Assembly (NCBI RefSeq): GCF_018304945.1
Contig: NZ_JAGQEE010000001.1
Span: 62,001 to 126,000 of the forward strand
DNA from: Collimonas humicola
GTDB lineage: Bacteria > Pseudomonadota > Gammaproteobacteria > Burkholderiales > Burkholderiaceae_D
DNA length: 64,000 nt
Direction of reading: 5' to 3'
The notes beneath the pieces are model-generated. The model made no database searches. It saw nothing but the letters and a program-made list of their open reading frames with translations, and had not been told where the DNA came from. Shown here piece by piece: positions 31,588-45,418 of this stretch (position 1 is the stretch's first letter; every line of letters starts with the position of its first letter). The translations under genes were made by a program, and so were the position numbers.

Positions 31588-31662
31588 GGGAGGTTAGCTC
31601 AGGGGTAGAGCGATCGCCTCACACGCGATAGGTCACAAGTTCGAAACTTGTACTTCCCACCA
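31588..31662 (+). tRNA. tRNA-Val (anticodon CAC)
   Basis: A 75-nt tRNA. The acceptor stem pairs GGGAGGT with ACTTCCC, followed by encoded ACCA. The anticodon stem ATCGC/GCGAT encloses CTCACAC, giving CAC. A CATAAT -10 element lies at 31,570-31,575. The 3' end is 25 bp from an integrase remnant, so this tRNA is the likely insertion site of the accessory region. Confidence 0.93.
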
Positions 31663-31686
31663 AGATTCCTGTTTTAAATCAATAAG

Positions 31687-32540
31687 TTAAGCCGGTCGTG
31701 AAAATCCCAGGGATAGTTCAGGGATGTTTTCATTAATCTGGGCTTCGATTTTGATCATTTCCCTGTCATCGTCTTGGTGACTAATCCACTTTGCATAGTC
31801 CCGGTAAAACACGTCTAGGCTATGTCCAAGCTGGGCCGCCATGTATGCAGGTTGCGCGCCCGCCATCAATCCCACCGTTGCATATGTCGCTCTCGTGCTA
31901 TATGGGTGCCGACGGCGTATGCCTAGTAATTTCAAGGTTGGATTCCACTAAGGCTCCCTGATGTTTTGTTCCTTGGCCCAGGGCTTATTGGTGTTCGGGT
32001 TATGGAAGACTCGACCGCTTTCATCCAGGTAGGTCTATGCCTTTTGACGCTTCAGGGCTTGGAAGGCACGAGTCGTTAAATTGACAGTCCGCTCTCTGGA
32101 CGTCTTAGTATCCACCATTTCACCACGGACAAATGCCTGCTTGACGACGACGGTTCTATTGCTGAAGTCGACATCCTTCTATTCAAGCCCAATACCTTCG
32201 CCCGTTCGCAGACCACCGAAAAACATAAAATCATAGAAATTGTGGACCTGTTGCGGACAGTCTCAGACAAACTAGCAATGATTTTATTTGCCTCGATCAG
32301 ACTGAATGGGTCGGGCTTTTTCCTCTGCCATGAGGCACTTGCAATGGCGTTGCAGGGATTACTGGTTATTAAGCCATCGGCCACAGCAAGGTTGAGGGCG
32401 CTACTGAGTATGGCATGTGCAATGTGCCGCAAGAGAAAGAGTGTCGGGCAATTCGCGCGTGGGGATGATCTATGCAGGATGCGTCGGTTGACCCAGCGAA
32501 TCAGCCAGTTGCGGGAAGCGTACGATAAGGTATGCCGCAA
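31687..32540 (-). pseudogene. Degraded tyrosine integrase next to tRNA-Val
   Basis: Read on the minus strand, the remnant gives in order a core-binding region (SALNLAVADGLITSNPCNAI, then KKPDPFSLIEANKIIASL), a frameshift near 32,240, the catalytic-Arg region MFFGGLRTGEGIG, three in-frame stops, the HPYSTRATYA and QLGHS motifs, and the nucleophile tyrosine region DVFYRDYAKWI. It ends 25 bp from the tRNA 3' end, the usual position for an island integrase. The last 82 codons still form an open frame (31,687-31,935). The N-terminal domain is missing or replaced by the repeat at 32,488. Confidence 0.85.
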
Positions 32541-32728
32541 GAATGAGGTGTTCCAGAATGATGTTCTGGCAGGTTCGATTCTGGAGAGCGCTGTTGATGC
32601 CGCCGGCGACGCTGCGTGTAAGGCAAAGCAGTTTGTAGAACGTCGATCAATGATTGCTGAATTTCGCGTGAAAGCGGCAACGGACGATGGTAGCTCCCCA
32701 TTATTTTTGTTGGCTCAAACTTGACCTG
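32488..32728 (+). repeat. Repeat family R, copy 1: 3' end of an unknown gene
   Basis: The longest copy of a repeated gene end. It encodes QRISQLREAYDKVCRKNEVF then KAKQFVERRSMIAEFRVKA and SPLF, stopping at the TGA in CAAACTTGACCTG (32,716-32,728). Differences from copy 2 (33,621) are largely synonymous or conservative without indels, showing the segment was once under coding selection. I do not recognise the protein. It is fused upstream to the integrase remnant, so no intact start is visible; the frame is open from 32,242. Confidence 0.75.
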
Positions 32729-32746
32729 ATATCTGCTTCGGCCGGC

Positions 32747-32812
32747 CTTAATGTCAGCTTAATGTTGTCTTAATAATGTCTTAATTCTATTGCATTGATT
32801 TCACTTTATATT
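32747..32812 (+). promoter_or_regulatory. Promoter with four 11-bp-phased CTTAAT boxes, copy 1
   Basis: CTTAAT occurs at 32,747, 32,758, 32,769 and 32,780, each exactly 11 bp apart. A TATATT -10 element follows at 32,807-32,812. The fourth box overlaps the place of a -35 element, which is otherwise poor. Direct repeats of the form YTTAAK with N5 spacing are the known binding pattern of PmrA/QseB-type OmpR-family response regulators; assignment to any one regulator is inference. Confidence 0.6.
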
Positions 32813-32818
32813 TGCTCT

Positions 32819-32896
32819 GTCATTCATCATGACAGTAAGTCTCCTAATCCCTGATGGGCTGTCATGTGCCTGCAACCGAGAGGTTGCGGGCATTTC
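32819..32896 (+). ncRNA. Candidate short terminated RNA or leader, copy 1
   Basis: From the expected transcription start, about 75 nt lead to a 10-bp stem GCCTGCAACC/GGTTGCGGGC (32,868-32,891) with a GAGA loop followed by ATTT. A second pairing CATGACAG (32,829) with CTGTCATG lies within it. The related copy at 38,353 keeps the terminal stem through a compensatory change. Could be a small RNA or a terminated leader of the DUF4096 gene that starts at 32,935. Confidence 0.45.
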
Positions 32897-32934
32897 GAAG
32901 TTTTAATTGGAAACAGAAAAATAATTTTTTCATC

Positions 32935-33297
32935 ATGCGTAGAAATTTTAAATTCGAAAAAACACTTCGGAATGATCAATGGGAAAAATTGGAACATACC
33001 TTCCCCGAAATCTTTAAAAAAAATTATCGCCGCCATAATGTCCGTCTTTTTATCGACGCTGTATTGTGGGTTACAGGGAATAACACAGCATGGAACTATC
33101 TGCCCGAAAAATACGGTAGTAAAACTTCTATTTACTCTCGCTTTTGTCGCTGGAGTGAAGAGGAAATCTGGCATTCCTTAGCGTTAAAGTTCGGTGATGA
33201 CAATGAGCTGAAAGCGTTGTTCGGCTCGGTTGTTGAGCGCGCTGATCTTTTTATCAAGGCCAAGGAGTACCGAAATTTAAATGGAGCGGAGGGATAA
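32935..33297 (+). CDS. Stand-alone DUF4096 protein (transposase N-terminal domain)
   Basis: A protein of about 120 residues consisting only of the helix-turn-helix-like DUF4096 domain found at the N-terminus of IS5-type transposases: LRNDQWEKLEHTFPE, then RLFIDAVLWVTGNNTAWNYL and SIYSRFCRWSEEEIW. No DDE catalytic domain follows; the frame stops normally at 33,297. The ATG at 32,935 is preferred, with a frame open from 32,854. AT-rich and unlike the core in base use. A paralogue is at 56,997. It may be a remnant or a domesticated DNA-binding protein. Confidence 0.65.
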   Translation: MRRNFKFEKTLRNDQWEKLEHTFPEIFKKNYRRHNVRLFIDAVLWVTGNNTAWNYLPEKYGSKTSIYSRFCRWSEEEIWHSLALKFGDDNELKALFGSVVERADLFIKAKEYRNLNGAEG

Positions 33298-33341: not shown

Positions 33342-33620
33342 GGTAATCCCCCCCGCAAAAAAGTATCGGCTAAAAGTAGAATTTTCTTAAATGCGATTTT
33401 GAGGAAGTTTTACATGAAGACATCACGCATTTCGAACTTACGCTGATGCTGGAAAGGCGGGGGAGTTCAGATAGAAGAGCGGGACAACAGTAATATTTAC
33501 CAGCTTCCAACATTCGCAAAATAATAGCTTTTCATTTTCGACGAAAGTACATCTGAAAATTGAAATTTGCGTAGCAAAAGAAAAGGGCCCACATGCCGTG
33601 AGCCTTTCAGATATTGGAGC
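33342..33620. other. Gene-poor AT-rich gap
   Basis: I see no convincing gene, hairpin or promoter here; short frames exist but none has a family signature. Confidence 0.5.
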
Positions 33621-33797
33621 TATGCTGCAAAAACGAGGTATTTCAGAACGATGTCCTGGCAGGACCGATCCTGGAGGGCACAGTGGGCGCCGCCGGCGCC
33701 GCTGCGTGTAAGGCAAAGCAGTTTGTGGAGCGCCGGTCGATGATCGCCGATTTCCGCGCGAAGGCGGCGACAAATGATGGCAGCTATCCATTATTTG
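33621..33797 (+). repeat. Repeat family R, copy 2
   Basis: Encodes CKNEVFQNDVLAGPILEG, then ACKAKQFVERRSMIADFRAK and YPLF in one open frame that runs on to a stop at 33,838. Aligned to copy 1 without indels, with changes such as TTC/TTT, AAT/AAC and GTT/GTC that keep the amino acid. Upstream sequence is unrelated to copy 1. Confidence 0.7.
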
Positions 33798-33936
33798 CGA
33801 AAGAAAGTGATGTATCTGAGGGGCGGGTGCGCAGATGACTGCAAGCAGACGTTCATCGACGTGATTGAAGAACCCGTCCAGTTCGTCAACTTTCCGGCAA
33901 AAAGCAAGCCTTTCGCTTGTGTAGCCACAACGCCGT

Positions 33937-37863: not shown

Positions 37864-38060
37864 AACAGTCCGAAAAATAAAACGCCAAATCTGCATGACA
37901 AATTGTTATTTTATATAGCTATTATGAATATTAGATGAAGCGTATCTTGCCGACGATGCATTCGACGCAGGGAGCAGTGGGGCAGAACGTCGCCGCGATG
38001 GTCACTGTCTTGCTCAAGAGCGCCGCAGAGGTGAGGCTATCGCGGTCGCACCTGGATAGC

Positions 38061-38280
38061 TTGACCCGCGAATCAGCCAGCTGCAGGAAGCGTACGACAA
38101 GATGTGCCGCGAGAATGAGACGTTTCAGAACGATGCCCGGCCGGTTCAATCCTGGTGAGCGCAGGGGGGGGGGCGCCGGCGACGCCGCGTGTAAGGCCAA
38201 GCAGTTTGTAGAGCGCCGGTCGATGATTGCGAAATTTCGCGTGAAAGCGGCAACGGACGATGGTAGCTATCCATTACTGC
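38061..38280 (+). repeat. Repeat family R, copy 3 (frameshifted)
   Basis: Matches copy 1 from TTGACCC to CCATTA, but a one-base deletion near 38,068 and a G9 run near 38,165 break the frame. Unlike copies 1 and 4 it lacks the CAAACTTGACCTG end and runs directly into the CTTAAT boxes. Confidence 0.75.
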
Positions 38281-38346
38281 CTTAATGCGATTCTAACGTT
38301 GTCTTAATGGTATCTTAATATTGTTGCATTGATTTCGCTTTATATT
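38281..38346 (+). promoter_or_regulatory. Promoter with phased CTTAAT boxes, copy 2
   Basis: CTTAAT at 38,281, 38,303 and 38,314, with a degenerate TCTAAC at 38,292, keeps the 11-bp phase of copy 1. The last box is 21 bp from TATATT (38,341-38,346), the same distance as in copy 1. Confidence 0.6.
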
Positions 38347-38352
38347 TGCTTC

Positions 38353-38434
38353 GTCATTCATCATGACAGTAAGTCTCCTAATCCCTGATGGACTTTAACG
38401 TGCCTGTAACCGAAAGGTTACGGGCATTTTTTTT
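38353..38434 (+). ncRNA. Candidate short terminated RNA or leader, copy 2
   Basis: About 80 nt ending in GCCTGTAACC/GGTTACGGGC (38,402-38,425, GAAA loop) followed by A and T8, a canonical intrinsic terminator. Relative to copy 1 one stem pair changes from C-G to T-A on both sides. The shared 5' part contains the pyrimidine-rich segment GTCTCCTAATCCC. Confidence 0.5.
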
Positions 38435-38443
38435 GAAGAAATT

Positions 38444-38632
38444 GTGACAATCAAATTTGCGAGCGCTGCGCTTGTTCTGGGGCTGCTGACGGCATGCGCC
38501 GTAGATCCGTATTCTAGTTCGGGCATATCTTTACTTAATCAGAATTTTCTTTACCAAGTTTTAACTGGAAACAAAAAAATGAATAGTCCACGGTCAATCT
38601 GCTCAGAAGTTGACGCTGATGCGAAGCACTGA
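38444..38632 (+). CDS. Small lipoprotein (uncertain)
   Basis: A 62-codon frame from GTG with a signal sequence and lipobox LLTAC (cysteine at about residue 18), followed by 44 hydrophilic residues. It starts 10 bp after the terminator T-run. The segment just downstream of its middle (TTTTAACTGGAAACA, about 38,557) matches the leader of the DUF4096 gene at about 32,900, so this gene sits inside a duplicated unit and may be a chimeric remnant. Confidence 0.4.
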   Translation: MTIKFASAALVLGLLTACAVDPYSSSGISLLNQNFLYQVLTGNKKMNSPRSICSEVDADAKH

Positions 38633-39035
38633 TTTTTTCTTTCTTCTTATTAGAATCGGCATCGCAGGCATCGCGTTTTCCGTTGCGACGACAGCGAACG
38701 CCCAACCCCGATCTATCACTATCAGTTGCGGATCGGCCTCGAACGGACTTGGCGTCGAGATAAAAACGACGCAGCCGAAAAAGCACGCATGTCCATAGGC
38801 GATCAAGGACGGACTTGGCGTCGAGATAAAAACGACGCAGCCGAAAAAGCACGCATGTCCATAGGCGATCAAGGTGGCCAATACTTATCTCCGGGCGATA
38901 GATAAGCCGAATCCTATAAAAATCATGGTCAACGACATTACTTGGATCTGTCGGGAACGCAAGGGTGAGACCAATCCTTATCGGGAATGCGTCATGCAGA
39001 AAAAGCCTAGCGAAAGGGCCTATCTGGTTTCATAG
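38619..39035 (+). pseudogene. Secreted small protein interrupted by a duplicated amber stop
   Basis: From ATG 38,619 a signal peptide (MRSTDFFFLLIRIGIAGIAF, cleavage near ANA) leads into a mature part that meets TAG at 38,796. The same frame then continues open through a second TAG at 38,862 to TAG at 39,033, including a cysteine-bearing segment WICRERKGETNPYREC. The two internal stops lie at the same place in a 66-bp tandem duplication. Probably one decayed gene; the first 59 codons could still be expressed. Confidence 0.5.
38744..38875 (+). repeat. 66-bp tandem duplication (two copies)
   Basis: Units 38,744-38,809 and 38,810-38,875 are identical except at the last bases. Sixty-six bases keep the reading frame (22 codons). 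Confidence 0.9.
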
Positions 39036-43058: not shown

Positions 43059-43134
43059 ACCTACTGCCCGAATTTTTCTGAATTACTTATGTTGTTTGCG
43101 TGTCAGCGCGAAGAGATGGTCTGATCGCCCCATA
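43059..43134 (-). pseudogene. 3'-terminal fragment of a methyltransferase gene
   Basis: This stretch matches 47,056-47,131, the end of the methyltransferase gene at 47,084, including the last codons (GAIRPSLRADTQTT) and about 25 bp of its downstream flank. It is joined directly to an integrase fragment at 43,135. Confidence 0.75.
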
Positions 43135-43276
43135 TGCCCAAGCTGTGCCGCCATGTATGCAGGTCGCGCGCCCGCCATCAATCCCACCTTTGCATATGCC
43201 GCCCTGGTGCAATACAGGCGCCGACGGCGTATGCCTGGTAATTTCAAGGTTGGATTCCAATAAGGCTCCCTGATGT
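43133..43276 (-). pseudogene. Second integrase fragment
   Basis: Matches 31,821-31,964. Minus-strand translation gives LKLPGIRRRRLYCTRAAYAK then VGLMAGARPAYMAAQLGH, the same frame as the tRNA-adjacent remnant, ending abruptly after LGHM at the junction with the methyltransferase fragment. The catalytic His of HPYSTR is lost here. Confidence 0.8.
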
Positions 43277-45213: not shown

Positions 45214-45304
45214 TCTATTAGGAAAGCTGGCAAGTTGGTTGTGGTCGACCAATTCCGGTCATTCGCTGCACATTTTTTTGGGTGGAACTTGCCTGCGAGC
45301 CGGG

Positions 45305-45418
45305 TGTAAGGCCAAGCGGTTTGTAGAGCGCCGTTCGACGATTGCCGATTTCCGTGCAAAAGCGGCAACGGGCGATAGTCGCTATCCATTATTTGGAACG
45401 ACTCAAACTTGACCTGAC
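45305..45418 (+). repeat. Repeat family R, copy 4
   Basis: Encodes CKAKRFVERRSTIADFRAKA then YPLFGTTQT and stops in TCAAACTTGACCTGAC, with the frame intact. Only the last third of the repeated gene end is present. Confidence 0.75.

Follow-up and report, generated by a model that had tools for sequence, protein, structure and literature searches.

A candidate small RNA gene with PmrA/QseB-type half-sites, found in several copies in Collimonas humicola and other Collimonas genomes

The window, 64,000 nt of the Collimonas humicola genome (C11:62001-126000; the genome has 5.62 Mb), contains two copies of a short unit in which several CTTAAT boxes precede a TATATT sequence and a hairpin. The initial annotation took this unit for a promoter, activated by a response regulator, which would produce a small RNA or an attenuated leader. 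Two questions arise: whether the unit is a small RNA gene or the leader of another gene, and what the copies in the window represent. Their features are listed here, together with those of the adjoining DNA.

32476..32718, + strand: XRE/HTH regulator gene, fragment of its 3' end, which precedes copy 1
32747..32785, + strand: four CTTAAT half-sites in exact 11-bp phase, copy 1 (pattern match)
32807..32812, + strand: copy 1, -10 sequence TATATT at 21 nt from the proximal box (no sigma-70 pair on this strand)
32819..32866, + strand: predicted RNA start and 5' part of copy 1, with a GTCAT..ATGAC hairpin and a CU-rich stretch (alignment; putative start)
32854..33297, + strand: open reading frame with an IS4/5-type transposase domain (DUF4096, residues 38-109), which overlaps and follows copy 1
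32867..32892, + strand: terminator-type hairpin of copy 1, T-run lost, followed by TTTCGAAG (sequence, terminator scan)
37953..38279, + strand: 3' end of the same XRE/HTH gene again, as a fragment which precedes copy 2
38281..38319, + strand: three CTTAAT and one TCTAAC half-site in 11-bp phase, copy 2 (sequence)
38341..38346, + strand: -10 sequence TATATT, copy 2 (sequence)
38353..38399, + strand: copy 2, 5' part of the predicted RNA with its start (alignment; putative start)
38400..38434, + strand: intrinsic terminator with T-run, copy 2 (terminator scan)
38444..38632, + strand: truncated remnant of a CVNH lipoprotein gene, with homology to the intact gene up to about 38514

Copy 1 has its four CTTAAT boxes at 32747, 32758, 32769 and 32780, TATATT 21 nt past the last of them, and a hairpin after the leader, all as annotated. 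The second unit, 38,281-38,434, also agrees with its description: there are three intact boxes and a degenerate one (CTTAAT 38281, TCTAAC 38292, CTTAAT 38303, CTTAAT 38314), the same 21 nt from the last box to TATATT, and a terminator (38400-38427) whose T-run ends at 38434. The two copies show 85% identity across 151 nt. The terminator, as annotated for both, is present in copy 2, which keeps its T-run and is matched by the terminator scan. This part of the description does not hold for copy 1: the T-run is lost, the hairpin is only followed by the sequence given in the list, and the terminator scan does not detect a terminator. A pattern of three CTTAAT boxes in 11-bp phase, with up to three mismatches, has 5 matches in the window, 2 of them exact, when 0.04 are expected, and none of 100 shuffles reaches 5 matches. 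No sigma-70 -35/-10 pair is found by the promoter scan on the + strand at either window copy, which makes it plausible that the last box stands in place of the -35 sequence.

The annotation expected at least two copies, and the genome has five when it is searched with a covariance model. A DNA search of the whole genome detects four: the two window copies, copy 3 (C11:1026996) and a truncated copy 4 (C11:1061608), which has no terminator and only one good box left. The sequence CTTAATN5CTTAAT has 8 matches in the genome, and the reversed control pattern has none. Copies 1-3 account for six of the 8; a seventh, at C20:128767, has no clear context, and the last, at C11:1523210, belongs to a fifth copy which the DNA search had missed. 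The more general pattern YTTAAK-N5-YTTAAK has 17 matches versus 11 for the control; 7 of the 17 are inside units, and there is no genome-wide enrichment beyond them. The plain DNA search does not detect the unit in any of the 14 other Collimonas genomes (E up to 0.001), and the single match in 399 genomes of the order, 52 nt long (G098), is taken for chance. These negatives are a problem of sensitivity, since the same search missed the fifth copy of the window's own genome.

Covariance models give a different picture of the family. The first model was built on five leaders, from the -10 to the terminator, with no boxes included. Searched against 15 Collimonas genomes, it has 10 matches at E<1e-10, which lie in 6 genomes and include five new units; the next match is at 4e-4. 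The 98 weaker matches (E 4e-4 to 0.96) were left out of the family; four which were inspected (L165, L166, L167, L175) overlap matches of a known RNA family, RF02278, discussed below. The second model, from the boxes to the terminator, was built on ten units. It has 11 matches in 6 of 394 relatives, all of them Collimonas: the ten training sequences and copy 4. The search for boxes and hairpin in the genome and its relatives, which had been suggested as a check, thus gives 11 units in 6 of 15 Collimonas genomes, with the boxes conserved. In the other nine Collimonas genomes the covariance models find no unit. None is detected by the second model in the 379 relatives outside the genus; this absence is soft, because the filters were strict and 8 candidates were scored per genome.

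The unit has a length of about 128 bp and consists of two half-sites, the -10, some 75-80 nt and the terminator. When units are compared in pairs, the homologous stretch in most cases begins with the two boxes and runs as far as the T-run or some 35 nt past it. The five new units (in G004, G005, G007, G008 and G011) stand alone between genes: the next gene is convergent in two cases, and in three the next open reading frame on the same strand (at least 100 aa) begins more than 200 nt downstream. In G007 a 191-aa frame on the same strand overlaps the stand-alone unit. All five keep the promoter, the hairpins and the T-run, and all five have the boxes at the same place. Since the model which found them started at the -10, their boxes and the 21-nt spacing are an independent confirmation. 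G005 and G008 have an extra flank in common, and a conserved block some kilobases off is common to G005, G008 and G011, therefore these three units may mark one ancestral place.

The comparison does not support four boxes as the basic design, which the annotation had assumed. All 11 units have CTTAAT as their proximal box, at 21 nt from the -10. The distal half-site, 11 bp before it, agrees in at least 5 of 6 positions in 10 of them; the exception is copy 4, with 4/6. Only three units, copy 1, copy 3 and the fifth copy of the window's genome, have a third box in phase (at least 5/6). At this position copy 2, which has a perfect fourth box, only matches 4/6, and so does one G007 unit. The conserved state is a pair of half-sites, and the four-box array is, to judge from this comparison, a lineage-specific expansion of a two-box promoter.

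A promoter with PmrA/QseB-type half-sites had been suggested, and the comparison supports it, given the five stand-alone units in five other Collimonas genomes. The portion of PMC3973317 which deals with the PmrA box gives it as two half-sites 5 bp apart. Like the promoters with PmrA/QseB boxes (OmpR/PhoB family), the unit has two head-to-tail half-sites of CTTAAT/CTTAAG type with a 5-bp spacer. The window's genome has similar sites before regulator genes: two YTTAAK-N5-YTTAAK sites which are not in units precede response-regulator genes, and one precedes a gene adjoining one of these two. The nearest models of the first regulator are PmrA and QseB, below the NCBIfam equivalog cut-offs, and PmrA/BasR is the nearest in PDB; in the window's genome this QseB-type protein, whose gene is at G000:C23:169225, has both receiver and DNA-binding domains. 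Its gene is preceded by a half-site pair in all 14 orthologues read, where the -10 lies 10 nt after the second half-site (TAAACT in 13; in the other, TACACT, located by eye). The gene for the second regulator, of PmrA type, has CTTAAG-N5-CTTAA before it in 4 of 4 cases, with the -10 TAGGAT 11 nt after the second half-site in all four. A third related group has no half-site pair in any of 12 upstream windows, two of which do not start at the true gene start; ten further regulator matches were set aside in this reading. The unit differs from such promoters in having up to four boxes in the lineage of the window's genome, and in the distance from box to -10: 21 nt, which adds one helical turn to the 10-11 nt seen before the regulator genes of the genus.

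A switch protein of PmrA/QseB type, controlled by a sensor, probably turns the unit on. The second regulator is the one whose distribution follows that of the unit best: it is found in 4 of the 15 genomes, all among the 6 with the unit (p 0.011, for a comparison chosen post hoc which ignores relatedness). Its orthologues, 75-76% identical, are only found in G004, G005 and G007 among the 15 genomes, so it is absent from G008 and G011, which do have the unit. In the window's genome itself (L151 1542-2231; G000:C4:79750) its frame runs on without a DNA-binding domain.

The predicted RNA was studied in a structure alignment of ten leaders; copy 4, without a terminator, was left out, and the structure was drawn on these same sequences. 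In the 5' hairpin and the terminator, 93.5% of the cells are paired, versus 21-45% when the structure is slid. Six cells are changed on both sides of a pair, which none of 500 shuffles reaches, and four pairs have changes on both sides, reached by 22 of 500. For further pair types the count does not exceed that of the shuffles, since 434 of 500 attain it; one of the 5' pairs is broken in 4 of the 10 sequences, and some units have modest folding z-scores (-2.2 to -4.3). A CU-rich stretch, with a weak middle hairpin around it, lies between the two hairpins. The 5' dyad was also considered as a DNA operator, and RNA is preferred because the loop length varies from 5 to 7.

Only two tRNAs are found in the whole window with Rfam at the gathering threshold. 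The closest known RNA is RF02278, a toxic small RNA of Betaproteobacteria with a double hairpin, from Burkholderia, which is also short and CU-rich and has a GCCCG..CGGGC terminator with a U-tail. Nevertheless, the best score of any unit is 29.0 bits, for a unit of G007 (L160), against a gathering threshold of 50. The L163 unit has 19.6 bits, and the family is not listed at E up to 1 for the units of L161, L162, L164, L174, L120, L159, L173 and L187. In Collimonas, RF02278 corresponds to separate genes: eight matches, in pairs, at four loci, four of the eight above threshold. They are above it in G011, G013 and G014 and just below in G001. The members of each pair (L165, L166, L167 and L175, that is G013, G014, G001 and G011) are some 0.4-0.5 kb apart, and in G013, G014 and G001 one of them precedes a small gene beginning MSAHTYKIVELVGSS.

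Sections of PMC4603805 and PMC5688073 describe the Burkholderia RNAs of this family as expressed, with several dispersed copies and CU-rich unpaired stretches, and liken them to NmsR RNAs, which pair with ribosome-binding sites; a figure legend on them mentions the reverse complement of "ribosome". According to a passage in PMC5688073, the NmsR sibling small RNAs of Neisseria are complementary to the ribosome-binding sites of metabolic genes. NmsR (RF02877) and mmgR (RF00519) resemble the unit in having a CU-rich segment 5' of the terminator, but the unit is far below both Rfam thresholds: the G007 unit mentioned above has 23.0 bits for mmgR (threshold 41), and 19.5 for anti-hemB (threshold 49.5). 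On this sequence evidence, the unit RNA is of the same general type as the anti-Shine-Dalgarno small RNAs, without being a member of the families named.

A precedent for the regulation of such a gene is found in the enterobacteria. OmrA/OmrB (OmpR) and MgrR (PhoP) are small RNA genes activated by response regulators of the OmpR family, unrelated to the unit in sequence and hosts. None of them is known to have an array of more than two half-sites. We have found no paper with both Collimonas and CVNH, the protein domain discussed next. The papers which mention Collimonas and small RNAs have neither word in title or abstract, and the word Collimonas is absent among the matches listed in broader literature searches. 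The RNA family appears to be new, its type is known.

The remaining two units are directly followed by a gene. In the window's genome, the fifth copy (C11:1523103) has promoter, leader and hairpin directly before a lipoprotein gene, which adjoins a YadA-type adhesin gene and whose protein has a CVNH lectin domain (PF08881). In G007 another copy, the one with the Rfam scores given above, lies directly before a CVNH gene, and its protein is the closest relative, 84% identical. The CVNH protein is found in 14 of 15 Collimonas genomes, and weakly in 1 of 105 others; its five relatives in genome_contigs are all in Collimonas records. An alignment of copy 2 with the CVNH-linked locus of the window's genome (74% identity, 234 columns) covers the leader and extends into the signal sequence of the lipoprotein. 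Copy 2 is thus related to the CVNH-linked copy, and so, by their likeness, are the other copies.

We propose, with a probability of about 0.62, that the unit is a small RNA gene activated by a regulator of PmrA/QseB (OmpR) type, whose RNA acts in trans, and that the window copies are derived duplicates. The regulator would bind the head-to-tail CTTAAT half-sites, with a dimer site centred near -42, and would recruit RNA polymerase to a promoter without a -35. An RNA of about 75-80 nt would be made and would act in trans as a repressor of target mRNAs. It would begin with a hairpin and end in an intrinsic terminator, with a U-tail to which Hfq could bind; its CU-rich stretch could base-pair with ribosome-binding sites. 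One copy would have ended up before the CVNH lipoprotein gene in the lineage which led to the window's genome. This arrangement would then have been duplicated beside the repeated 3' ends of a phage-type XRE gene, the boxes increasing from two to four. The result would be a complete copy 2 and a copy 1 with promoter and stem but without the T-run. The existence of the CVNH-linked copies, and the start of the CVNH gene retained by copy 2, are what point to the window copies as derived, partly decayed duplicates.

Each of copies 1-4 comes after the 3' end of an XRE/HTH regulator gene. Such 3'-end fragments are found in the window at 32476-32718, 33617-33799, 37953-38279 and 45299-45403. They end near a GCTATCCATTATTT-like sequence, followed mostly by unrelated DNA. 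Longer copies of the regulator and more fragments are found at C11:1.03-1.06 Mb, and in G003, G007, G008 and G011. From its sequence, this looks like a hotspot of repeated integration or recombination, and the window copies look like passengers of such events. The region 31588-32540 has a tRNA-Val and then integrase fragments on the - strand, and a 144-nt piece (31821-31964) recurs at 43133-43276 with 91% identity. There is also a perfect 66-bp tandem duplication at 38743-38874. At L004 1582-2301 a deletion has apparently fused the N-terminus of a YbcO-type nuclease to a C-terminal portion of the XRE regulator.

The window copies may be non-functional relics of duplications in a decaying mobile island, so that only the CVNH-linked or stand-alone copies work. 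They do lie close to the tRNA-Val, among truncated ends of the regulator gene and fragments of integrases and of an IS, and the lost T-run of copy 1 and the state of copy 4 would agree with decay. Nevertheless, copy 2 keeps all conserved elements, including the T-run, with one compensatory pair change in its stem, and copy 1 carries the most complete box array of all units. We consider such a loss of function a real possibility, somewhat less probable than its opposite; it would be compatible with the small RNA explanation for the family. Copy 2 may still be a working small RNA gene, whereas transcription of copy 1 would run into the IS fragment.

The unit might also be primarily a regulated leader, with the hairpin as an attenuator before the CVNH gene and the stand-alone copies as leaders which lack their gene. 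In fact, the terminator ends just before the CVNH ribosome-binding site at both C11:1523103 and G007, and copy 2 retains the start of the CVNH gene. On the other hand, the five stand-alone units, each in a different genome, are not followed by a CVNH gene, and in all of them promoter, hairpins and T-run are retained. The upstream regions of 17 CVNH genes were read, and a half-site pair within 330 nt is only found in two, those of the window's genome and G007; it is absent from the other 15, which include the second paralogues of these same two genomes, and also within 330 nt of the five genes in genome_contigs. An alternative antiterminator pairing is not seen by eye. We find a primary leader role unlikely. 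The annotation had left both products open: the small RNA is supported by the five stand-alone units, the leader arrangement stands at the two CVNH loci only. Both CVNH-linked units (L120, L123) contain an open frame, in phase with the CVNH gene, which extends from a conserved ATGAC across the hairpin. A leader peptide was set aside as a candidate: in copies 2 and 3 this frame meets a stop codon ahead of the hairpin.

A broader idea, which we regard as still more doubtful, is that a self-contained 128-bp cassette, made up of two response-regulator half-sites, the -10, an anti-Shine-Dalgarno small RNA and the terminator, relocates as a unit and would act as a stand-alone small RNA gene in some places and as an activator-dependent attenuated leader before the CVNH gene in another, its box number changing by 11-bp steps so that the strength of the response could be tuned.

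It is very improbable that the direct repeats are sites for a regulator encoded by a phage or island, and not for a host response regulator, even if the window copies adjoin a phage-type XRE gene end and unrelated viral contigs have promoters with 3-7 CTTAAT boxes in 11-bp phase: the XRE gene is absent from the open reading frames listed for the stand-alone loci (five loci of 3 kb), host genes of PmrA/QseB type have similar half-sites before them, the viral distance from box to -10 is about 10 nt, and none of 18 viral loci tested against the unit model does better than E 0.4. These viral arrays (L031, L034, L035, L051, L079 and L080, from IMG/VR 3300033143 and 3300033148) have 3-7 CTTAATN5 boxes, about 10 nt and TATAAT. 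They are perhaps an array-based regulon in a virus; the scan gave 71 stretches, of which a minority was examined. A late phage promoter was rejected, given the lack of an XRE gene among the open reading frames listed in the five stand-alone loci; in addition, six CVNH peptide patterns gave no relative in viral contigs. A similarity of 32400-33000 to phage DNA was rejected too, with only one 28-nt match (E 0.2).

In summary, if it is expressed, the unit would be a new family of Collimonas small RNAs under a two-component system which reads PmrA/QseB-type boxes. Its copies form a natural promoter series, with 1, 2, 3 and 4 half-sites in phase on nearly the same core, in which the effect of array length on output can be tested. 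The same sequence would be a small RNA gene in some places and a 5' leader in others. Finally, a CVNH surface lipoprotein beside a YadA-type adhesin, as in the window's genome, may have a bearing on the contact of these soil bacteria with fungi.
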